From: Campylobacter pinnipediorum subsp. caledonicus | GTDB lineage: Bacteria > Campylobacterota > Campylobacteria > Campylobacterales > Campylobacteraceae | NCBI RefSeq assembly: GCF_002022005.1 | Contig: NZ_CP017258.1 | Coordinates: 1,694,338-1,758,337 of the forward strand | Direction: 5' to 3' | Length of the DNA: 64,000 bases | In this document: one piece after another, positions 10,040 through 50,478 of the stretch | How the letters are laid out: the number at the start of each line of letters is the position of its first letter | Numbering within the stretch: the first letter of the stretch is position 1 | Translations under genes and position numbers: made by a program | The notes under the pieces: model-generated | The model's database searches: none | What the model saw: the letters and a program-made list of their open reading frames with translations, nothing else | What the model was told of the DNA's origin: nothing

Positions 10040-11839
10040 TTAAAACTTATAAGAAAGTCCTACAGTTCCATTGTAGTATTTTGATTCTGATTTAGCTTTT
10101 ACGCCAAAGTTTATATTTGTAGATAGATTATCAGTTAGTTTCATCTCTGCACCTGTTTTAAGTGTAAAGAATGTATGCTTATCTTTTTTAGATGCATATT
10201 TGATATTTTCTGTTGAGTTTACAAATGCTAGTTCTGTATCTTTCATACTTTTACGTAACTCTTTTTGGATACCTGGAGTTATGTATAAGAAGTTACCGTT
10301 TGCTATGTATTTTCTAAACTCTACTGCTGCTTTAGCTGATAGTGTTTTTACAGTAGTTCCTTTAAAGCTTACAGGAACTTTACCAGTTTCTTTAAAGCCT
10401 TTAGTACTTACATGGCTATATTCTAAACCAATCATTGGTTTCATAAAAGAGTTGTTGTTTGTATCAAATATATGACCATAATCAATACTTGCATCAAAGA
10501 ATTTAGTATTATATTTACCATTAGCATCAAAGTCTGGGTTTGTAGTTACTTTTCTATCTAGTTTGTTTTTACCTTTACCATAAGATACTTTAGCATCTAT
10601 TTCGTTTTGATCAATATACATTCTAGTATAAGCACCAAAGTGGTAGTTATCTGATTTGGTTGTTAGTGTATTGCTTGATGACTTAGCATTAGTATATCCA
10701 GCATATCCACCAATTATCATATTATCAAATGCTTTATCATAACCTAGCATAAATCCATAAGTATTTGTATTTGCTTGAGATTTTAATTTAGCTTTACCAC
10801 CCATGATATTTCCCCATAGGTTACTGTCATAGTTAAATCTATTTGTATACTCTTTTACTACACTTGAAAGAGTATCTGCATTATCTGCAAATTTATTATC
10901 ACTTAGATTTTTTATAGCATAAGCTAAAGCTAAATCATCATTTAATGGATTGCTTAGTTTAGCAAGTCTTGAGTTTGTAGCCAATCCAGTATTTGATATT
11001 ATAGCATCTATAGTATCGATATTGTTAAAGCCACTGGTAATATCTTCTAAAGATTTGTTTAACACTTTACCTAACATAGCTATATCTTCAGCATCATAGT
11101 CTTCTTCTATAATACCAGAAAGTTTTTTATCATCTTTAACATTTAATAAAGATGATACTGTTTGAGCTTCATTGTTATTTAATTCATTAGCTGTTACTAT
11201 AGCTTCAGTTAAAAGCTTTTTATCTGCATCTTTAAAATTATCTTTTTTTAAAGCTTCTTCTGCATACTTATCTGCAATTTTTTTTACTTCTTTGTTTATA
11301 AAATCTTGTAGTTTTAAATATGAAGACTCATCTAATGGTTTATTGGTTTTCTTGTATTTTCCTAACGGTTTATCATCACCACCTTTAAATACTATCCTAT
11401 TTCCCTCTAACTCAGCTATTTTTTCACCATCAAGATAAACTTCATTTTTTTTGACATCAATAGCAAAAAGACAATCGTTTGTGTTATCTTTGCAGGTATC
11501 TTTACCATTTTTAGGTATAAAAACACCTTTTTTATCTTTGTTGATCACATCAAAATATTCAGTTAATTTAGTAGCATGACTATGTAATTCTTTAAGTGAT
11601 GGATTTCCCTTGTCGTCATAAAAATCCTTTGGAAATTTAGAACTATAGTTTTTAAAAAGATAACTACCAGCATCTACACTTTTTAAACTATCTTTAAAAG
11701 CTTTAACCTCTTTAACAATATTATCTTTCACGTCTTTTATGGTAAGATAATCTTGCTTCTCTTTATTTGCATCTGCAAAAGCACCTGTAGCGATAATAGC
11801 ACCTAATAATGTGCTACATGCAATCTTTGAAATTTTCAT
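10040..11839 (-). CDS. Autotransporter AT1, identical to AT2
   Basis: A 599-residue protein with a signal peptide (cleavage likely after AFA at 20-22), a mostly helical, lysine-rich passenger of about 300 residues, and a C-terminal beta-barrel domain from about 335. The last residues SYKF end in aromatic Phe, typical of outer-membrane barrels, and NLWGNIMGGKAK then GFMLGYDKAF are family-typical barrel strands. Family knowledge (type V secretion) predicts a surface-exposed or released passenger; what it binds is unknown. AAGGAG lies five bases before the ATG. The promoter has 11 consecutive G on the coding strand next to its -10 box. The only difference seen from AT2 and its flanks is tract length. 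Confidence 0.88.
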   Translation of the reverse strand: MKISKIACSTLLGAIIATGAFADANKEKQDYLTIKDVKDNIVKEVKAFKDSLKSVDAGSYLFKNYSSKFPKDFYDDKGNPSLKELHSHATKLTEYFDVINKDKKGVFIPKNGKDTCKDNTNDCLFAIDVKKNEVYLDGEKIAELEGNRIVFKGGDDKPLGKYKKTNKPLDESSYLKLQDFINKEVKKIADKYAEEALKKDNFKDADKKLLTEAIVTANELNNNEAQTVSSLLNVKDDKKLSGIIEEDYDAEDIAMLGKVLNKSLEDITSGFNNIDTIDAIISNTGLATNSRLAKLSNPLNDDLALAYAIKNLSDNKFADNADTLSSVVKEYTNRFNYDSNLWGNIMGGKAKLKSQANTNTYGFMLGYDKAFDNMIIGGYAGYTNAKSSSNTLTTKSDNYHFGAYTRMYIDQNEIDAKVSYGKGKNKLDRKVTTNPDFDANGKYNTKFFDASIDYGHIFDTNNNSFMKPMIGLEYSHVSTKGFKETGKVPVSFKGTTVKTLSAKAAVEFRKYIANGNFLYITPGIQKELRKSMKDTELAFVNSTENIKYASKKDKHTFFTLKTGAEMKLTDNLSTNINFGVKAKSESKYYNGTVGLSYKF

Positions 11840-11852
11840 TTTTTCTCCTTTT

Positions 11853-11871
11853 ATATAGATTATATCTATAT
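11853..11871. repeat. Inverted repeat in the AT1 5' untranslated region
   Basis: ATATAGAT (11853-11860) and ATCTATAT (11864-11871) form an 8-bp inverted repeat right beside the ribosome-binding site, with a further TATAGAT copy near 11885. The same element sits before AT2 (around 13842-13860). It is absent before AT3 and AT4, whose leaders are about 30 bases shorter. It could be an operator or an RNA hairpin. Confidence 0.5.
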
Positions 11872-11901
11872 TTAATATGCATTTATAGATATAAAAACTA
11901 T

Positions 11902-11930
11902 ATTTTACCCCCCCCCCCTATTAAAATAAG
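11902..11930 (-). promoter_or_regulatory. AT1 promoter with phase-variable poly-G(11) tract
   Basis: On the coding strand, 11 G (11918-11908) directly precede TAAAAT (11907-11902), the likely -10 box, 63 bases before the ATG. A tract here sits in the -35/-10 spacer, so slippage would change spacing and promoter strength. G tracts of eight or more are known hypermutable sites in Campylobacter. Confidence 0.7.
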
Positions 11931-11992
11931 CTAAATATTTGATATAAATTTGTATGTTTTATAAGATTAGTGTTGTTTATGTATTGTGTGAT

Positions 11993-12021
11993 AACCACAA
12001 CCCTTGGTTAGAGTTGTGGTT
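11993..12021 (-). terminator. Hairpin terminator after AT2 (copy 1 of a repeated element)
   Basis: AACCACAAC (11993-12001) pairs with GTTGTGGTT (12013-12021). The same hairpin and about 80 bp of flanking sequence recur after AT3 and AT4. Confidence 0.75.
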
Positions 12022-12028
12022 TGTGTAA

Positions 12029-13828
12029 TTAAAACTTATAAGAAAGTCCTACAGTTCCATTGTAGTATTTTGATTCTGATTTAGCTTTTACGCCAAAGTT
12101 TATATTTGTAGATAGATTATCAGTTAGTTTCATCTCTGCACCTGTTTTAAGTGTAAAGAATGTATGCTTATCTTTTTTAGATGCATATTTGATATTTTCT
12201 GTTGAGTTTACAAATGCTAGTTCTGTATCTTTCATACTTTTACGTAACTCTTTTTGGATACCTGGAGTTATGTATAAGAAGTTACCGTTTGCTATGTATT
12301 TTCTAAACTCTACTGCTGCTTTAGCTGATAGTGTTTTTACAGTAGTTCCTTTAAAGCTTACAGGAACTTTACCAGTTTCTTTAAAGCCTTTAGTACTTAC
12401 ATGGCTATATTCTAAACCAATCATTGGTTTCATAAAAGAGTTGTTGTTTGTATCAAATATATGACCATAATCAATACTTGCATCAAAGAATTTAGTATTA
12501 TATTTACCATTAGCATCAAAGTCTGGGTTTGTAGTTACTTTTCTATCTAGTTTGTTTTTACCTTTACCATAAGATACTTTAGCATCTATTTCGTTTTGAT
12601 CAATATACATTCTAGTATAAGCACCAAAGTGGTAGTTATCTGATTTGGTTGTTAGTGTATTGCTTGATGACTTAGCATTAGTATATCCAGCATATCCACC
12701 AATTATCATATTATCAAATGCTTTATCATAACCTAGCATAAATCCATAAGTATTTGTATTTGCTTGAGATTTTAATTTAGCTTTACCACCCATGATATTT
12801 CCCCATAGGTTACTGTCATAGTTAAATCTATTTGTATACTCTTTTACTACACTTGAAAGAGTATCTGCATTATCTGCAAATTTATTATCACTTAGATTTT
12901 TTATAGCATAAGCTAAAGCTAAATCATCATTTAATGGATTGCTTAGTTTAGCAAGTCTTGAGTTTGTAGCCAATCCAGTATTTGATATTATAGCATCTAT
13001 AGTATCGATATTGTTAAAGCCACTGGTAATATCTTCTAAAGATTTGTTTAACACTTTACCTAACATAGCTATATCTTCAGCATCATAGTCTTCTTCTATA
13101 ATACCAGAAAGTTTTTTATCATCTTTAACATTTAATAAAGATGATACTGTTTGAGCTTCATTGTTATTTAATTCATTAGCTGTTACTATAGCTTCAGTTA
13201 AAAGCTTTTTATCTGCATCTTTAAAATTATCTTTTTTTAAAGCTTCTTCTGCATACTTATCTGCAATTTTTTTTACTTCTTTGTTTATAAAATCTTGTAG
13301 TTTTAAATATGAAGACTCATCTAATGGTTTATTGGTTTTCTTGTATTTTCCTAACGGTTTATCATCACCACCTTTAAATACTATCCTATTTCCCTCTAAC
13401 TCAGCTATTTTTTCACCATCAAGATAAACTTCATTTTTTTTGACATCAATAGCAAAAAGACAATCGTTTGTGTTATCTTTGCAGGTATCTTTACCATTTT
13501 TAGGTATAAAAACACCTTTTTTATCTTTGTTGATCACATCAAAATATTCAGTTAATTTAGTAGCATGACTATGTAATTCTTTAAGTGATGGATTTCCCTT
13601 GTCGTCATAAAAATCCTTTGGAAATTTAGAACTATAGTTTTTAAAAAGATAACTACCAGCATCTACACTTTTTAAACTATCTTTAAAAGCTTTAACCTCT
13701 TTAACAATATTATCTTTCACGTCTTTTATGGTAAGATAATCTTGCTTCTCTTTATTTGCATCTGCAAAAGCACCTGTAGCGATAATAGCACCTAATAATG
13801 TGCTACATGCAATCTTTGAAATTTTCAT
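12029..13828 (-). CDS. Autotransporter AT2, identical to AT1
   Basis: The encoded 599-residue protein is the same as AT1 at every residue: signal peptide, helical lysine-rich passenger to about residue 330, and beta-barrel ending in SYKF. The ribosome-binding site and leader are also identical. The promoter tract is 9 G instead of 11, so if tract length sets the expression state, the two copies may be in different states. The repeated terminator element follows it (11993-12021). Such an exact copy implies very recent duplication or continuing gene conversion. Assembly collapse or error cannot be ruled out from sequence alone, but the differing tract lengths argue for two real copies. Confidence 0.88.
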   Translation of the reverse strand: MKISKIACSTLLGAIIATGAFADANKEKQDYLTIKDVKDNIVKEVKAFKDSLKSVDAGSYLFKNYSSKFPKDFYDDKGNPSLKELHSHATKLTEYFDVINKDKKGVFIPKNGKDTCKDNTNDCLFAIDVKKNEVYLDGEKIAELEGNRIVFKGGDDKPLGKYKKTNKPLDESSYLKLQDFINKEVKKIADKYAEEALKKDNFKDADKKLLTEAIVTANELNNNEAQTVSSLLNVKDDKKLSGIIEEDYDAEDIAMLGKVLNKSLEDITSGFNNIDTIDAIISNTGLATNSRLAKLSNPLNDDLALAYAIKNLSDNKFADNADTLSSVVKEYTNRFNYDSNLWGNIMGGKAKLKSQANTNTYGFMLGYDKAFDNMIIGGYAGYTNAKSSSNTLTTKSDNYHFGAYTRMYIDQNEIDAKVSYGKGKNKLDRKVTTNPDFDANGKYNTKFFDASIDYGHIFDTNNNSFMKPMIGLEYSHVSTKGFKETGKVPVSFKGTTVKTLSAKAAVEFRKYIANGNFLYITPGIQKELRKSMKDTELAFVNSTENIKYASKKDKHTFFTLKTGAEMKLTDNLSTNINFGVKAKSESKYYNGTVGLSYKF

Positions 13829-13890
13829 TTTTTCTCCTTTTATATAGATTATATCTATATTTAATATGCATTTATAGATATAAAAACTAT

Positions 13891-13917
13891 ATTTTACCCC
13901 CCCCCTATTAAAATAAG
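13891..13917 (-). promoter_or_regulatory. AT2 promoter with phase-variable poly-G(9) tract
   Basis: Nine G on the coding strand (13905-13897) directly precede TAAAAT (13896-13891). All surrounding bases match the AT1 promoter, so the tract is the only changed position between the two copies. Confidence 0.7.
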
Positions 13918-14015: not shown

Positions 14016-16553
14016 TTAAAACTTATAAGAAAGTCCTACAGTTCCATTGTAGTATTTTGATTCTGATTTAGCTTTTACGCCAAAGTTTATATTTGTAGAT
14101 AGATTATCAGTTAGTTTCATCTCTGCACCTGTTTTAAGTGTAAAGAATGTATGCTTATCTTTTTTAGATGCATATTTGATATTTTCTGTTGAGTTTACAA
14201 ATGCTAGTTCTGTATCTTTCATACTTTTACGTAACTCTTTTTGGATACCTGGAGTTATGTATAAGAAGTTACCGTTTGCTATGTATTTTCTAAACTCTAC
14301 TGCTGCTTTAGCTGATAGTGTTTTTACAGTAGTTCCTTTAAAGCTTACAGGAACTTTACCAGTTTCTTTAAAGCCTTTAGTACTTACATGGCTATATTCT
14401 AAACCAATCATTGGTTTCATAAAAGAGTTGTTGTTTGTATCAAATATATGACCATAATCAATACTTGCATCAAAGAATTTAGTATTATATTTACCATTAG
14501 CATCAAAGTCTGGGTTTGTAGTTACTTTTCTATCTAGTTTGTTTTTACCTTTACCATAAGATACTTTAGCATCTATTTCGTTTTGATCAATATACATTCT
14601 AGTATAAGCACCAAAGTGGTAGTTATCTGATTTGGTTGTTAGTGTATTGCTTGATGACTTAGCATTAGTATATCCAGCATATCCACCAATTATCATATTA
14701 TCAAATGCTTTATCATAACCTAGCATAAATCCATAAGTATTTGTATTTGCTTGAGATTTTAATTTAGCTTTACCACCCATGATATTTCCCCATAGGTTGC
14801 TGTCATAGTTAAATCTATTTGTATACTCTTTTACTACACTTGAAAGAGTATCTGCATTATCTGCAAATTTATTATCACTTAGATTTTTTATAGCATAAGC
14901 TAATGCTAGATCATCATTTAATGGATTGCTTAGTTTAGCAAGTCTTGAGTTTATAGCTGAACCAACACTTGATAAAAGTGTATCTACTGTTTTATTGTCT
15001 TTAAACTCTTTTGAAACTTCTTCTAATGTGCTATTTATATTTTTAGCTAAAGTAGCTATGTCTTTGGCTTTAACATTAAGTAGTAAATTCTCAACCTCTT
15101 TATTATTAACAACAGATAATAAAGATGATGTTGTTTGAGCTTCATCTTTGTTTAGTTCTAAATTTTTATCACTTGATATAGCTTCTGCTCTATCTTTTTT
15201 GGCTTTTTCTAGTTTTTTATCTAGTTCTGCTATTATTTTAGCTTTTGCTTCTGGATTTTTTGCTTTACGAGCTAGTTCTTGGGCTTCTTTTAGTTCTTTT
15301 TCGGCTTGTTCTAGTTTTGGTTGTAGTTCTTTTAGTTTTTGTTCGGCTTCTTTTTTGGCTTGTTCTAGTGCTTTTTCAGCTTTTTCTAATTCTTCGGTTT
15401 TTTGTTGTGCTAATTGTGCTTGTTTTTCTGATTCCTTAGTTTTTTCTGTGATTATTTTTTCTTTTTCTGTTTCAATTTGCTTTTGTCTTTCAAATTCTTG
15501 TTGTTGTTTTTCAAATTCTTGTTGTTGTTTTTCAAATTCTTGTTGTTTTTTATTTTCTAAACTTTGTTGTTTTTTAATTTCTTGTTCAAAACTTACTATT
15601 TCTTCTACTTTTTTTTGAATTTCATTTTTGATAGTAATTATTGTTTCAAGCATAGACTTAATCGAATCTGTTTCATTTTTTAGATCTTCTATTAATTTTC
15701 TCAAACCTTTTTTATTATCTTCTTTACCACCAATAATTTCATTTAATTTATTTGTTTTTTCTTGTTCTGTTTCAAGTTTGTTAAGCTTTGATTTATTAAC
15801 CAAACCTATTTTAGACAGAGTTTCCAATAATTTTATTTTTTCATTATTTTTATTACCATTTAAATCACCAGCTAATTGTTTTAGTTTATCATCAGTATAT
15901 CCATTTTCGCCTTTTAAAATTTCAATGGCATTATTAAGGTCATTTTTTGAACCTTTAAAAGTTTCTTTGGTTAATTCTTGTAAAATATCTTTTAATTCTG
16001 TTTGATTTTTAATTTTACTGTTTATTCCATTTTTTCCAAATACTTTTTCTTCAGCTTCTTTTTTAATCTTTTCATTTCGATCTTTTAAATTTTCAGCTAC
16101 TTTTTTTTCTTTTTCAATTTGTATTATTTCTGTTTCAGCTTTTTGTCTTTCTTTTTCAATTTTTTCTTTTGCTTGTTGTGCTTGTTGTGCTTGTTGTAAG
16201 GCTTTATTTTTTATATTTTCAGCTACTTTTTTTTCTTGTTCTGCTTGTTGTTTTAATTTTTCTGCTTCATTTCTTGCTTGTTCTGCTTGTTGTTTTTCTT
16301 TTTCAATTTTTTCTTTAGCTTGTTCTGCTTCTAATCTTGCATTTTTTGCTTGCTGTTTAGCTTGCTCAATTTGTTGTTTTTCTTGCTTAAATTTATCAAG
16401 AAATCCATCTTTACTAGCTTCTTCTAATTCTTTAATTTGGTTTTGGTTTTGGTTTTGTATATTATTTATTTCATCCAAAGATGAACTACCATAAACATTT
16501 ATCGTCATCATTGCACCTATAATAGTTGCACTAGCAATCATCGAAATTTTCAA
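14016..16553 (-). CDS. Autotransporter AT3 with long coiled-coil passenger (TTG start)
   Basis: An 845-residue autotransporter. After a signal peptide (residues 1-22), the passenger up to about residue 480 is a long coiled coil rich in Lys, Glu and Gln (runs such as EQAKQQAKNARLEAEQAKEK). It is followed by a helical linker and the barrel. The barrel DNA is identical to AT1/AT2 from the stop to 14798; mismatches begin at 14799 and the sequences soon diverge fully, the mark of gene conversion. The start is TTG at 16553: AAGGAG lies exactly six bases before it and it aligns with the ATG of AT1. The next in-frame ATG (codon 5) would shorten the signal peptide. The passenger contains 21-bp repeats. 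Confidence 0.87.
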   Translation of the reverse strand: MKISMIASATIIGAMMTINVYGSSSLDEINNIQNQNQNQIKELEEASKDGFLDKFKQEKQQIEQAKQQAKNARLEAEQAKEKIEKEKQQAEQARNEAEKLKQQAEQEKKVAENIKNKALQQAQQAQQAKEKIEKERQKAETEIIQIEKEKKVAENLKDRNEKIKKEAEEKVFGKNGINSKIKNQTELKDILQELTKETFKGSKNDLNNAIEILKGENGYTDDKLKQLAGDLNGNKNNEKIKLLETLSKIGLVNKSKLNKLETEQEKTNKLNEIIGGKEDNKKGLRKLIEDLKNETDSIKSMLETIITIKNEIQKKVEEIVSFEQEIKKQQSLENKKQQEFEKQQQEFEKQQQEFERQKQIETEKEKIITEKTKESEKQAQLAQQKTEELEKAEKALEQAKKEAEQKLKELQPKLEQAEKELKEAQELARKAKNPEAKAKIIAELDKKLEKAKKDRAEAISSDKNLELNKDEAQTTSSLLSVVNNKEVENLLLNVKAKDIATLAKNINSTLEEVSKEFKDNKTVDTLLSSVGSAINSRLAKLSNPLNDDLALAYAIKNLSDNKFADNADTLSSVVKEYTNRFNYDSNLWGNIMGGKAKLKSQANTNTYGFMLGYDKAFDNMIIGGYAGYTNAKSSSNTLTTKSDNYHFGAYTRMYIDQNEIDAKVSYGKGKNKLDRKVTTNPDFDANGKYNTKFFDASIDYGHIFDTNNNSFMKPMIGLEYSHVSTKGFKETGKVPVSFKGTTVKTLSAKAAVEFRKYIANGNFLYITPGIQKELRKSMKDTELAFVNSTENIKYASKKDKHTFFTLKTGAEMKLTDNLSTNINFGVKAKSESKYYNGTVGLSYKF
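15486..15548 (-). repeat. Three 21-bp repeats encoding heptads (EFEKQQQ) in AT3
   Basis: Three near-identical 21-bp units encode consecutive EFEKQQQ-type heptads. Since 21 bp is one coiled-coil heptad, gain or loss of units would change passenger length without breaking the frame or register. Confidence 0.8.
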
Positions 16554-16584: not shown

Positions 16585-16610
16585 ATTTTACCCCCCCCAT
16601 ATTAAAATAA
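16585..16610 (-). promoter_or_regulatory. AT3 promoter with poly-G(8) tract
   Basis: Eight G on the coding strand (16598-16591), after TTTTAATAT, directly precede TAAAAT (16590-16585). The leader is only 32 bases and lacks the TATAGAT inverted repeat of AT1/AT2. Confidence 0.65.
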
Positions 16611-16730: not shown

Positions 16731-19565
16731 TTAGAACTTGTATTTAAGTCCTACAGTTCCATCAAAGTATTGTTGTTTTGATTTAGCTTTTACGCCAAAG
16801 TTTACGTTTGTAGATAAAGCATCTGTTAGTTTTAATTCTGCACCTGTTTTAAGTGTAACAAATCTTCCTTTTTTATCATCTGCTTTTAGTTTGATGTCTT
16901 TGTTTGAACCTATAAATCTAGCTACAGGATCTTTTACATCTTTGTATACTTCTGCTTCAAATCCTGGAGTTATATATAGGTAGTTTCCATTGTCTACATA
17001 TTTTCTAAATTCTAAACCTAGTTTAGCATTTAAAGATTTTGAAGTAACACCATTAAATGATAATGCTAGATCTCCACTTTCTTTGAAAGCTTTTGATTTA
17101 GAGTGAGAATAATCTAATCCTACTAATGGTTTCATAAACAAGCTATCGCTTAGATCTATAACATAACCATAATCAACTGCTAATGATGTATATGTTGTAT
17201 CATATTTACCGTTTTGAGTTAATACATTACCATTGCTTTTTACATATCTATCAATTTTGTTTTTAGCTTTACCAAATGATACTCTTGTATCTATTTCACT
17301 ATTGTCTATATATGTTCTACCATATAGACCAAATTGATAGTTGCTTGCTTTTGTGTTGATTAGGCTAGAATCAGCTTTTGATTTAGCAAGAGTCATATAT
17401 CCACCTACTATTGTGTTATCAAATGCTCTATCATAACCTATACTAAAGCCATGTAGTTCTGGATTAGAACTATCTTTTACTTTACCTTTTGCACCTATAA
17501 CATTTGCCCATATATTGTTATCATTGTTAAATCTATCTGTATATGATTTTATTACAGATGATACACTATCACCATTATCAGCAAATTTATCATTGCTTAG
17601 TTTATTTATAGCAGATGCTAATGCTAAGTCTTCATTGAATGGATTGCTTAGTTTAGCAAGTCTTGTTTGTGTTGATAGTTGATTACTAAAATTAACCATA
17701 TCTAGATTAGATACTTTACCTATTTCGTTTGTTGCTGATTGGATTGAGGTTTCGTTGGCTTTTACGAAAGATAGTATATTTGCAGTATCTTGTGTTAGAT
17801 AATTTGCTATGTTATCATTTGAAGTAGCCGCATCAGTCATACTTAAAATGATATCTTTACTCATAGATGACAAATAAACTCTAGGATCTTGCAAAAATGT
17901 CTTTGCTTTTAGATCGTATCTAGCTTGGATAGAAGCCAGTTTTATCTGTGCATTTAAGGCTTTTTTTACAAGTTCTATCCCACTAGCACCAGCTACTAGC
18001 ACATCTATCGCATCTTTTATAGCGCCAGAACCATCATCACTCAATACTTTGTTATCTATATTTGTAGCTGCAAAATCTAACATTTTTTTAAGCTCACTAT
18101 CGTTTTTAACAACTATATTAGATTTTTTCAACAACCAAATAGCCTCTTTAAATTTAGCTATTTGTGCCATTTCACCATCTGTTTTTTGTCTGCTTTCTAA
18201 TGCGATTTTGGGATTAAAATTACCCATCTTTAGCTCTAATAGCAAATGACTTGCTTTTTGTAAGTTGTCGTATTGAGCTAAAATTCCTTCCGGTGTGTCT
18301 TTTATATGAATTTTTTTATCATTAATACCTTTCTTATTATATTTATAAACTTGTTGTTTTAATGTTTTATCGCCTTGTTTGATTAACCCAGCTTTTAACT
18401 CATAAATAGCTTCTTTTATCTTTAAAATCACACTTGGTTGTTCTTTCATAAACGCATCACTTTGTAAATTATCATAAATAATACTCAAATTTACAGCTGC
18501 GTCAAGAGCAAAAAGAGTAGTAGTGTCAAATCTATCAATGTATTTTGTTTTTAAATCATTACCATTGTTAAGATTATCCACATCTTTAATCAACTTTTTG
18601 AGATTTTCTATGCTATCTGCGGTATTTATATCTGATATCGTTTTACCATTTGCGAGTTCAATACCTGCATTAGCTAACGATTTAGCCAAAGCTTTAGCCT
18701 CAGATATATACTTATCATCTGATAACTTATCTAATTTTACCAAGTCATAATAAACTTGCATTAATTGTGATAAATTATCGGCCTTAAGCTTATTTCCACC
18801 AGAATCACCATTTGAACCTAAATGAAGTTTGGATCTTATCTGATCACCTGTTATCTTAAAAGAATTTGCCTTAATGCTTTCGTTCATGATTTTTAGATAC
18901 TTTAAGACAATATCGGAATTTAGCCTATCATCAACGATACTTGAATCCATTGAATCAAATTTTGGTTGTTCATTATAGTAACTCAATATAGCATATTTGG
19001 TTAGTTTTTCAAAGACTAATTGTTCTCTTTTTTGCAAGTCATTTGCTACATATTCTTTTAATGATTTTAAAAGAGCTGTAACTTTTTCTTTGTTTGCAAT
19101 AGAAAAAACATTATCAAAACCATTCTTTTCAGGACTAACAGTCGCAGTAGATGGAACTAAATTTGCACCCTTATGACTATCAATAAATATACTGACAGTT
19201 CCACCTTGTGATATTGAAATTTTATATCCATTTGGATTTGATATATCCGTTATATCTGATATTAGTTTCTTTTTATCAGTTACGCCAGGATTGTCAGCTA
19301 CATAAAAAGCACCTAGACTCGATATGTCATAAATTAACTCTGTTATTTCTTTTGCGTTAGTTGCAGTATTTTCGCCATAAGTGGCAAACTTTGAGTAGTC
19401 TATCTGATAAAAATCATTTATGATTTTATCTAATTTTTTACTATACCTTTTGGCTTTATCTTTAAGATTTTCTGAATCTTTAAAATCACTTTTAAGATCA
19501 GCAAAAGCACCTTGTGTTAAAACTACAGCGATCAGAGTCGCACTAGTAATAATCGAAATGTTGAA
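16731..19565 (-). CDS. Autotransporter AT4, intact frame but no canonical start codon (possible silent copy)
   Basis: One frame is open from 19565 to the stop at 16731 (about 943 residues). It encodes a hydrophobic signal-peptide-like start (KFNISIITSATLIAVVLTQGAFA), a long helical passenger, and a barrel ending LKYKF that is related to but diverged from AT1-AT3. The first in-frame ATG, GTG or TTG is a TTG at 19037, deep in the passenger, which would give a 768-residue protein without signal peptide. Alignment of the leader with AT3 puts TTC (19565-19563) where AT3 has TTG and AT1 has ATG, six bases after AAGGAG. An ATT codon (19559) is the nearest rare-start alternative. So either initiation is unusual or the gene is a recently silenced copy, perhaps a recombination donor. 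Confidence 0.72.
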   Translation of the reverse strand, partial: FNISIITSATLIAVVLTQGAFADLKSDFKDSENLKDKAKRYSKKLDKIINDFYQIDYSKFATYGENTATNAKEITELIYDISSLGAFYVADNPGVTDKKKLISDITDISNPNGYKISISQGGTVSIFIDSHKGANLVPSTATVSPEKNGFDNVFSIANKEKVTALLKSLKEYVANDLQKREQLVFEKLTKYAILSYYNEQPKFDSMDSSIVDDRLNSDIVLKYLKIMNESIKANSFKITGDQIRSKLHLGSNGDSGGNKLKADNLSQLMQVYYDLVKLDKLSDDKYISEAKALAKSLANAGIELANGKTISDINTADSIENLKKLIKDVDNLNNGNDLKTKYIDRFDTTTLFALDAAVNLSIIYDNLQSDAFMKEQPSVILKIKEAIYELKAGLIKQGDKTLKQQVYKYNKKGINDKKIHIKDTPEGILAQYDNLQKASHLLLELKMGNFNPKIALESRQKTDGEMAQIAKFKEAIWLLKKSNIVVKNDSELKKMLDFAATNIDNKVLSDDGSGAIKDAIDVLVAGASGIELVKKALNAQIKLASIQARYDLKAKTFLQDPRVYLSSMSKDIILSMTDAATSNDNIANYLTQDTANILSFVKANETSIQSATNEIGKVSNLDMVNFSNQLSTQTRLAKLSNPFNEDLALASAINKLSNDKFADNGDSVSSVIKSYTDRFNNDNNIWANVIGAKGKVKDSSNPELHGFSIGYDRAFDNTIVGGYMTLAKSKADSSLINTKASNYQFGLYGRTYIDNSEIDTRVSFGKAKNKIDRYVKSNGNVLTQNGKYDTTYTSLAVDYGYVIDLSDSLFMKPLVGLDYSHSKSKAFKESGDLALSFNGVTSKSLNAKLGLEFRKYVDNGNYLYITPGFEAEVYKDVKDPVARFIGSNKDIKLKADDKKGRFVTLKTGAELKLTDALSTNVNFGVKAKSKQQYFDGTVGLKYKF

Positions 19566-19599: not shown

Positions 19600-19605
19600 A
19601 TTTTA
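19600..19605 (-). promoter_or_regulatory. AT4 -10 box without homopolymer tract
   Basis: TAAAAT (19605-19600) is preceded by CTTTAATA and ten mixed bases (AATCCAGTAG), in the place where AT1-AT3 carry G tracts. The leader to the AAGGAG site matches that of AT3 in length. Confidence 0.5.
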
Positions 19606-19803
19606 CTACTGGATTTATTAAAGTAAAATAAAAATTACATAAATTTCTCATTTTTATGTAATTTTATTTCTACTTATATTAATGTCTTTTTGAAATCATA
19701 ATATAAAAAATAATTTTCTACCAAAAATAGGAAAAAAATATTTTTCAGTATTTGATTTTAAGTCCTAAAAGGCTAAAATACACAAAAATTCAAAAGAGAA
19801 AAT

Positions 19804-49341: not shown

Positions 49342-50478
49342 ATGAAAAAAACACAAATCCTTATAGCTATTTTTGTAACAATATTTATAGCTGGGTGCTT
49401 TGACTTTAATTTTTTAAAAACAGAGAAAAGCAAAAACACTCAAAATAAGAAACCACAAATGCCACCAGCAACAGTGAATGTTATAGTTGCAAAAAAAGCT
49501 GATAATAAAATGATTTTTGAGTATCCAGCAAAACTTGAAAGCTTACAAGAAGTTATAGTTACCCCAAAAGTTTCTGGAACCATAATAAAACAAAATTTCA
49601 AAGCAGGAGACAAAGTAAAACAAGGCGATGTTTTATTTATTGTAGAACCTGATAAATTTGAAGCGTTATATGATATAGCAAATGCAGCTATCATACAAGC
49701 TGAGTCAGCATACAAAAACGCAAAAAGTGAAATGGAACGTGTTAAGAGATTGTTTTCTCAAAATGCGATAAGCCAGAAAGAGTATGACAATGCCTTGGCA
49801 AAATTGGAAGTCGCAAGTGCATCAATAGCAAGTGCAAAAGCAAATGCAAAAGCAGCAAAATTAGATTTAAGCTATACAAAAATCAAAGCACCTTTTAGCG
49901 GTGTTGTTAGTGAGAACTTAGTAGATGTGGGTTCTTTTGTTGCGGCTGGTAATACAAAACTTGTAAAACTTAGTGACATAGATACAATCAATGCTAGATT
50001 TTATATCTCAGATGTAGCAAACCTAAAAAGAATCAATAATCTAACAAACAAAAATTGGGTTCAATTAGACTCAAATGCAACACTTATAACTAACAATGGA
50101 AACGTAAAAGGCTCACTTAACTTTATAGACAATACCGTTGATGAAAATACCGGTAGTGTTTTAGCAAAAGCTGAGTTTAAAAATGAAAATTTGCAACTTC
50201 TAGCTGGTTCATTTGCAAAAATAAGCCTAGATGGTTTTATACAAAAAAATAGCTTTTTATTGCCACAAATTGCAATAAAACAAGATGTTGTATCTCCATA
50301 TGTTTTAGTTGCAAAAGATAATAAGGTTACAAAAAAACCTATTCAAATTATATTTGAAACATCAGAAAATGCAATCATAAATAGTGGATTAAAAGAAGGT
50401 GATCAAATAATAATTAACAATTTTAATAAAATCGGTATCGGAGCGACTGTAAAGGTAGAAAACAAGGAGAACAAATAG
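49342..50478 (+). CDS. cmeA: RND efflux periplasmic adaptor (CmeA-like)
   Basis: A 378-residue membrane-fusion lipoprotein with lipobox IAGC (about residue 19). The lipoyl half KVSGTIIKQNFKAGDKVKQGDVLFIVEP and its partner AKLDLSYTKIKAPFSGVVSENLVDVGSFV frame a coiled-coil hairpin (about 105-165), followed by beta-barrel domains. It bridges the inner-membrane pump and the outer-membrane channel. First gene of a three-gene efflux operon. The symbol is by likeness to C. jejuni CmeABC and not certain. No cmeR-type repressor lies beside it. Confidence 0.85.
   Translation: MKKTQILIAIFVTIFIAGCFDFNFLKTEKSKNTQNKKPQMPPATVNVIVAKKADNKMIFEYPAKLESLQEVIVTPKVSGTIIKQNFKAGDKVKQGDVLFIVEPDKFEALYDIANAAIIQAESAYKNAKSEMERVKRLFSQNAISQKEYDNALAKLEVASASIASAKANAKAAKLDLSYTKIKAPFSGVVSENLVDVGSFVAAGNTKLVKLSDIDTINARFYISDVANLKRINNLTNKNWVQLDSNATLITNNGNVKGSLNFIDNTVDENTGSVLAKAEFKNENLQLLAGSFAKISLDGFIQKNSFLLPQIAIKQDVVSPYVLVAKDNKVTKKPIQIIFETSENAIINSGLKEGDQIIINNFNKIGIGATVKVENKENK

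Follow-up and report, generated by a model that had tools for sequence, protein, structure and literature searches.

The DNA analysed here, referred to as the window, is a 64,000-nucleotide stretch at the end of the single 1,758,337-base contig that represents the 1.758-Mb genome of Campylobacter pinnipediorum subsp. caledonicus. It carries a tandem array of three autotransporter genes and a fourth beside it, all read from the minus strand: AT1 (10040..11839), encoding 599 aa; AT2 (12029..13828), also 599 aa and nucleotide-identical to AT1; AT3 (14016..16553), encoding 845 aa from a TTG start; and AT4 (16731..19565), an autotransporter reading frame whose start position is uncertain. All four match the autotransporter barrel PF03797 in a Pfam scan, for which positions 16731-19037 of AT4 were taken, and the intergenic lengths are 189, 187, and 177 bp. 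AT4 has a clear ribosome-binding site (RBS) and promoter but shows TTC (19563-19565, minus strand) where its paralogues have a start codon, and the same TTC occupies this position in the sister species genome G036.

Poly-G tracts upstream of AT1, AT2, and AT3

Within the window, only three runs of at least seven G or C are found, namely C11 at 11908-11918, C9 at 13897-13905, and C8 at 16591-16598. In the coding sense of AT1, AT2, and AT3, they read G11, G9, and G8, each followed directly by TAAAAT, and the window-wide search thereby bears out the sequence-only reading, which had described three pure G tracts abutting identical hexamers. At AT1, the predicted −10 hexamer TAAAAT (11902..11907; present in all ten copies discussed below by virtue of the search pattern) is preceded by the G11 tract (11908..11918), which together with one A (11919) makes a spacer of 12 bp to the upstream element TTTAAT (11920..11925). 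The corresponding features of AT2 are TAAAAT at 13891..13896, the G9 tract at 13897..13905 that with one A (13906) gives a 10-bp spacer, and TTTAAT at 13907..13912; those of AT3 are TAAAAT at 16585..16590, the G8 tract at 16591..16598 that with AT (16599-16600) again gives a 10-bp spacer, and TTTAAT at 16601..16606, all on the minus strand. The promoter of AT4 (19600..19622, minus strand) has no tract, being composed of TTTAAT, a nonrepetitive spacer of 11 bp, and TAAAAT, and offers a fixed reference spacing. The tract lengths come from a single assembly, and since homopolymers are error-prone, assembly lengths can be wrong.

When the AT1 unit (1989 bp) is aligned with the AT2 unit (1987 bp), there are 0 mismatches and one 2-base gap located inside the tract, in line with the earlier observation that the two units, with intergenic lengths of 189 and 187 bp, are the same apart from two tract bases. 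Tract length thus differs on constant flanks, a comparison that is made between paralogues and not at one locus over time. Over its final 942 nt, AT3 departs from AT1 at 4 positions, so the array is recently duplicated or homogenised. The tracts end 68 nt before the start codon in AT1 and AT2 and 37 nt before it in AT3, a location on the strength of which translational switching is rejected for these three genes.

An inverted repeat separates the −10 from the RBS in the promoters with long leaders (those of AT1, AT2, and others), and at the end of this repeat stands a second TATAAT. In AT1, the repeat spans 11860..11894 on the minus strand, with arms at 11884-11894 and 11860-11870, and in both AT1 and AT2 the second TATAAT lies 19 nt before the start codon, where it is a possible alternative −10. 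The short-leader class (15727, 1095064, 1545793, and AT3) is devoid of the second TATAAT, yet has the TTTAAT-Gn-TAAAAT part. A stable RNA structure in the leader was considered and rejected on fold z-scores that are nothing unusual (−1.2 for AT1, +1.2 for AT3, and −0.75 for AT1 with the tract included).

Tract-bearing promoters across the genome

The whole genome contains 24 matches to PF03797, one of them under the family cut-off, and 29 distinct tracts of at least eight G or C. Ten of these tracts stand directly before TAAAAT, one before TATACT, and one before TACAAT (1600085); the ten that abut TAAAAT belong to paralogues and are not independent. They have the common form TTTTAATA(T)-Gn-TAAAATA with tracts of G8 to G11, and a barrel-matched gene lies downstream in nine of the ten. 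The tenth, at 1095064, leads to a 269-aa frame that has an autotransporter signal sequence but does not match the barrel; this gene is probably broken or truncated. At 371040, the flanks are different and the layout is alike, with G9 abutting TATACT and a 1394-aa autotransporter downstream, so that ten of these eleven promoters lead to autotransporter-barrel genes.

Tracts are also present within genes. Three large autotransporters (1387-1403 aa) at 50299, 375537, and 379902 have a G10 tract inside the coding region, just after the signal peptide, and these are candidate translational switches beside the promoter ones. Given that both promoter tracts and coding-sequence tracts are found, the genome uses both tract locations. 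Opposite-strand tracts were noted inside the open frames of two more autotransporter genes (G11 at 226367 and G9 at 915407), and an opposite-strand G9 lies just 3′ of two large autotransporter genes at 375315 and 379680 (minus strand), in each case after A9. A separate set comprises five near-identical sites at 1531819, 1534320, 1680688, 1683521, and 1686206, distributed over loci L064 and L066, with G/C runs of 10, 13, 10, 10, and 9, where the tract directly precedes TAAAGG...CCGATTT. In L066, the three sites read as poly-C in the coding sense and lie 82 nt upstream of flagellin genes (PF00669/PF00700). TAAAGG...CCGATTT resembles a sigma28 promoter, and the expression of flagellin may be tract-tuned as well.

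An 11-bp reference spacing

All occurrences of TTTAAT-N(5-17)-TAAAATA in the autotransporter loci retrieved from the window species and from the sister G036, in which the best relative of AT1 is 86% identical, were listed, and those linked to an RBS were kept. Among the promoters that have no pure tract of at least G8, the spacer is exactly 11 bp in all seven; two of these are from the window genome (AT4 and 1102769) and five from G036, and they were counted as five lineages because two look like ortholog pairs. In the window species, by comparison, the ten promoters with a pure tract have spacers of 10 bp (four), 11 bp (two), and 12 bp (four), while the single pure-tract promoter of G036 has 11 bp. 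Fisher's test gives p = 0.002 for the seven versus the ten promoters and p = 0.007 when five lineages are set against the ten, values to be used as a guide only in view of the shared ancestry. Three promoters of G036 contain what appear to be broken tracts, ATAAAGGGC, GGGGAGGGG, and AGGAGGGGG, and all have the 11-bp spacer; it is possible that they are locked switches.

The same distance emerges, with differing clarity, from a related pair of elements. In genome G035, TTTAAG-N(3-17)-TATAAT peaks at N = 11, with 10 of 27 matches, and in the window genome these two elements most often stand 11 bp apart as well, though with little excess (9 of 85 matches with N = 10-30, and 7 of 79 unique strings). 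Twelve autotransporter promoters of G035 have the form TTTAA(G/T)-(T/C)Gn-TAAAAT; their spacers are 8 bp (one), 9 bp (four), 10 bp (five), and 12 bp (two), with 11 bp in none. Counted over three genomes, 3 of 23 tract promoters have the 11-bp spacer, which is no enrichment. This scatter about 11 is to be expected of a slipping element and fits free slippage in which most copies are off; it fits a different optimum equally well, and 11 bp should be regarded as the putative active state. No conserved −35 hexamer was found by eye upstream of the tracts.

Recurrence in relatives and in the family

Autotransporter genes of relatives were retrieved by protein similarity, independently of the tract. 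Among the 26 with an assigned start, 14 have at least G7 directly before TAAAAT or TATAAT, including 11 of 12 in G035, 2 of 2 in G032, and 1 of 6 in G036. The remaining 12, which include all six genes from G003, G015, G033, and G041, show no pure tract before the −10. The layout takes the form TTTAAGT-Gn-TAAAAT in G035, and G12-TAAAAT and G10-TATAAT in G032. In some species the architecture is common, whereas in others it is not seen at these genes; it is not universal.

On a broader scale, tracts of at least G8 that abut TAWAAT yield 201 matches in 68 of the 153 genomes of the family, from five of its 12 genera. The other offsets from 1 to 10 yield 152 matches when pooled, about 15 each, such that the zero offset is enriched ~13-fold over their mean. 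Together with the number of genomic tracts that abut a −10-like hexamer, this makes a chance placement unlikely. A reversed-pattern control yields 37 matches, some of which arise where one of these promoter tracts is matched through the AT-rich sequence upstream of it. Outside the family, a sample of 268 genomes from the order gave 27 matches in 23 genomes.

In total, 96 unique sites, most of them chosen by the motif, were read, 72 of which have an open reading frame with an RBS and start within 110 nt. In 65 of these 72, the end of the −10 and the start codon are 25-48 nt apart, which accords with transcription that begins a short way past this −10. At 29 of the 72 sites, TTAAG precedes the tract by 7-13 nt, lying 19-21 nt from the −10 in 22 of those 29; the other 43 have no TTAAG at that position. 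By one simple rule, hydrophobic N-termini are found in 60 of the 72 proteins versus 13 of 31 control reading frames from the window. A Pfam scan of 20 of the 72 proteins returned seven autotransporters, three outer-membrane beta-barrels, two chemoreceptors, an AMP-binding enzyme, a GTPase, and two DUF proteins, with four having no match or only matches below the cut-off.

A probable slipping promoter spacer and its alternatives

The explanation that we consider probable is that each tract constitutes the spacer of a predicted sigma70-type promoter, between the TTTAAT element and the likely −10 TAAAAT. Replication slippage in the poly-G would move the spacer off, or back to, the favoured 11 bp, and with the tract placed between the last A/T element and the −10, a slip would alter the distance of the upstream pattern and its rotational phase alike, which in turn would alter transcription of the autotransporter gene downstream. 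In the sequenced clone, the spacers of AT1 (12 bp), AT2 (10 bp), and AT3 (10 bp) would all miss the favoured length by one base; a one-base step would either restore that length or take a spacer further from it, so that the paralogues would switch independently. The placement of the tracts in promoter spacers is well supported by the arrangement of the sequence; that TAAAAT serves as the −10 in vivo, that 11 bp corresponds to the high-expression state, that tracts slip within a population, and that surface display is consequently phase-variable are steps that we infer. The independent and reversible tuning of each autotransporter would follow by analogy with sabA, porA, and mismatch-repair and indel data from C. 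jejuni, which has no functional mismatch repair system and in which indel rates of tracts have been measured (PMC8355987). The sequence-only reading is accordingly supported in part. Its promoter-spacer placement is well supported and extended, in that TAAAAT, TATAAT, or TATACT directly follows the tract on unrelated flanks and 11 bp is kept in 7 of 7 promoters with no pure tract, and phase variation is the predicted consequence. A literal −35/−10 spacer of the porA kind is not evident, no conserved −35 hexamer having been found by eye and the conserved distance being 11 bp from TTTAAT.

Other explanations deserve to be weighed against the slipping spacer. A promoter may lie further upstream, in which case the poly-G would be transcribed and would act within the 5′ leader on translation or on small-RNA pairing, as the length of a leader poly-G does in H. 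pylori tlpB. The 68 nt (AT1 and AT2) and 37 nt (AT3) that separate tract and start codon leave room for a longer leader, and −10-like hexamers are available in the AT-rich DNA upstream. Against this, in the promoters recovered by protein search, the hexamer TAAAAT/TATAAT that follows the tract is kept while the upstream flanks vary among lineages, the −10-to-start distance falls within the range given above in 65 of 72 sites, and a fixed spacing of 11 bp has no evident role in a leader, so that we regard a transcribed tract as quite improbable. Less probable still is that the TATAAT next to the inverted repeat, 19 nt before the start codon, provides the main promoter of AT1 and AT2, which would render the tract irrelevant to both. 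This hexamer is perfect in the long-leader class, but it would leave a leader of only about 12 nt, and it is missing from the short-leader class, which has the TTTAAT-Gn-TAAAAT part nonetheless.

It is also conceivable, albeit unlikely, that the tracts vary with no useful effect, either as drifting homopolymers in redundant genes or as assembly errors in length. Among the alternatives, this is the one to which we give the most weight. In its favour are the single assembly with its error-prone homopolymers and the decayed capC genes with short uniform tracts that are reported for some lineages (PMC7168839). It is opposed by the ~13-fold excess, family-wide, of tracts placed directly at the −10 over the mean of the ten other offsets, and by the paralogues with no pure tract, in which exactly 11 bp is found in 7 of 7, an outcome that drift would not produce.

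Comparison with known systems

The notion that promoter poly-G before surface genes would be novel was overstated, since both capC (PMC7168839) and Helicobacter canadensis (PMC2823697) are in print, and this kind of arrangement is already known from the promoter poly-G of capC, with porA following the same principle (PMC7168839, PMC3899988). The capC autotransporters of Campylobacter jejuni, Campylobacter coli, and relatives have poly-G in the putative promoter, ranging from G4 to at least G10, and the length of the tract is unrelated to the intactness of the gene, a comparison that leaves expression aside. The sister family capD either has its tract within the coding sequence, as do the three G10 genes of the present genome, or has none (PMC7168839). 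Like the capC family, AT1-AT4 have the PF03797 barrel, and poly-G occupies the promoter region of AT1-AT3; membership of capC is not claimed. In C. jejuni and C. coli, capC lies between ppk and ssrA (PMC7168839), while no tmRNA (ssrA) neighbour is present in the two g4 loci checked here (L245 and L246). Among the C. jejuni and C. coli genomes of the capC study, none was found to carry multiple intact capC genes, in contrast to the ten near-identical promoters in one genome found here, and the tandem arrays with a defined 11-bp reference spacing differ from capC, for which the sections considered describe no promoter elements, spacing, or effect on expression (PMC7168839).

In porA of Neisseria meningitidis, poly-G likewise lies in a promoter spacer and one-base changes alter transcription; in that case, the spacer is between the −35 and the −10 and the effect is demonstrated, whereas here the distance is 11 bp from TTTAAT and the effect is one that we infer (PMC3899988). 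In H. canadensis, poly-G is similarly found in predicted promoters, upstream of IgA1-protease- and VacA-type genes and with length ranges at the level of reads, but the tracts are longer (G13-G16), the five promoter candidates include one poly-A, and promoter elements and spacing are not given in the portion of the paper drawn on (PMC2823697). For Campylobacter at large, the PhasomeIt survey lists 109 of 536 phase-variable gene groups (20%) with homologues that have intergenic tracts, and its core-phasome table includes a C. fetus autotransporter with C8-11 as well as MCPs, whose tracts may or may not be intergenic; the catalogue likewise holds genes with intergenic poly-G, but its accessible part gives no promoter anatomy (PMC6321876).

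Helicobacter pylori belongs to the same phylum as Campylobacter. Its gene sabA likewise exhibits homopolymer slippage at an adhesin promoter, with output set by the alignment of promoter parts, and tract length there alters transcription multiphasically at intervals of ~ten base pairs (PMC4081817). The sabA tract consists of T and adjoins the −35, with maxima and minima separated by about ten base pairs, as opposed to the G-tract set against the −10 in the present case (PMC4081817).

What is new is the 11-bp reference spacing, which provides a prediction for each gene, and the family-wide extent; in the open-access literature, as far as it could be searched, the spacing rule, the ten-copy set, the broken tracts at the same spacing, and the family-wide abutment were not found described. 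More tentatively, with a chance that we place slightly short of even, it can be speculated that there is a dedicated Campylobacter-type promoter class that has an evolvable poly-G, some ten bases long, between an A/T element and the −10, which occurs several times per genome before genes for autotransporters, outer-membrane barrels, lipoprotein-like proteins, and chemoreceptors, in which the favoured 11 bp allows the surface genes expressed by a clone to be predicted from genome sequence alone, and whose switch is locked in some lineages through interruption of the tract at exactly this length.

Phase variation in Campylobacter has been read mostly from coding-sequence tracts, where the frame is either ON or OFF. 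Promoter tracts have been catalogued, but the active length is not stated in the literature searched. If the 11-bp reference is true, promoter tracts would become readable from sequence, and each autotransporter would receive a predicted state that can be checked at the RNA level. The broken tracts of the sister species, which keep the same spacing, suggest that switches may be locked, and the family-wide pattern suggests that tracts control likely exported proteins of several classes, in bacteria that show no clear −35 in their main promoters.
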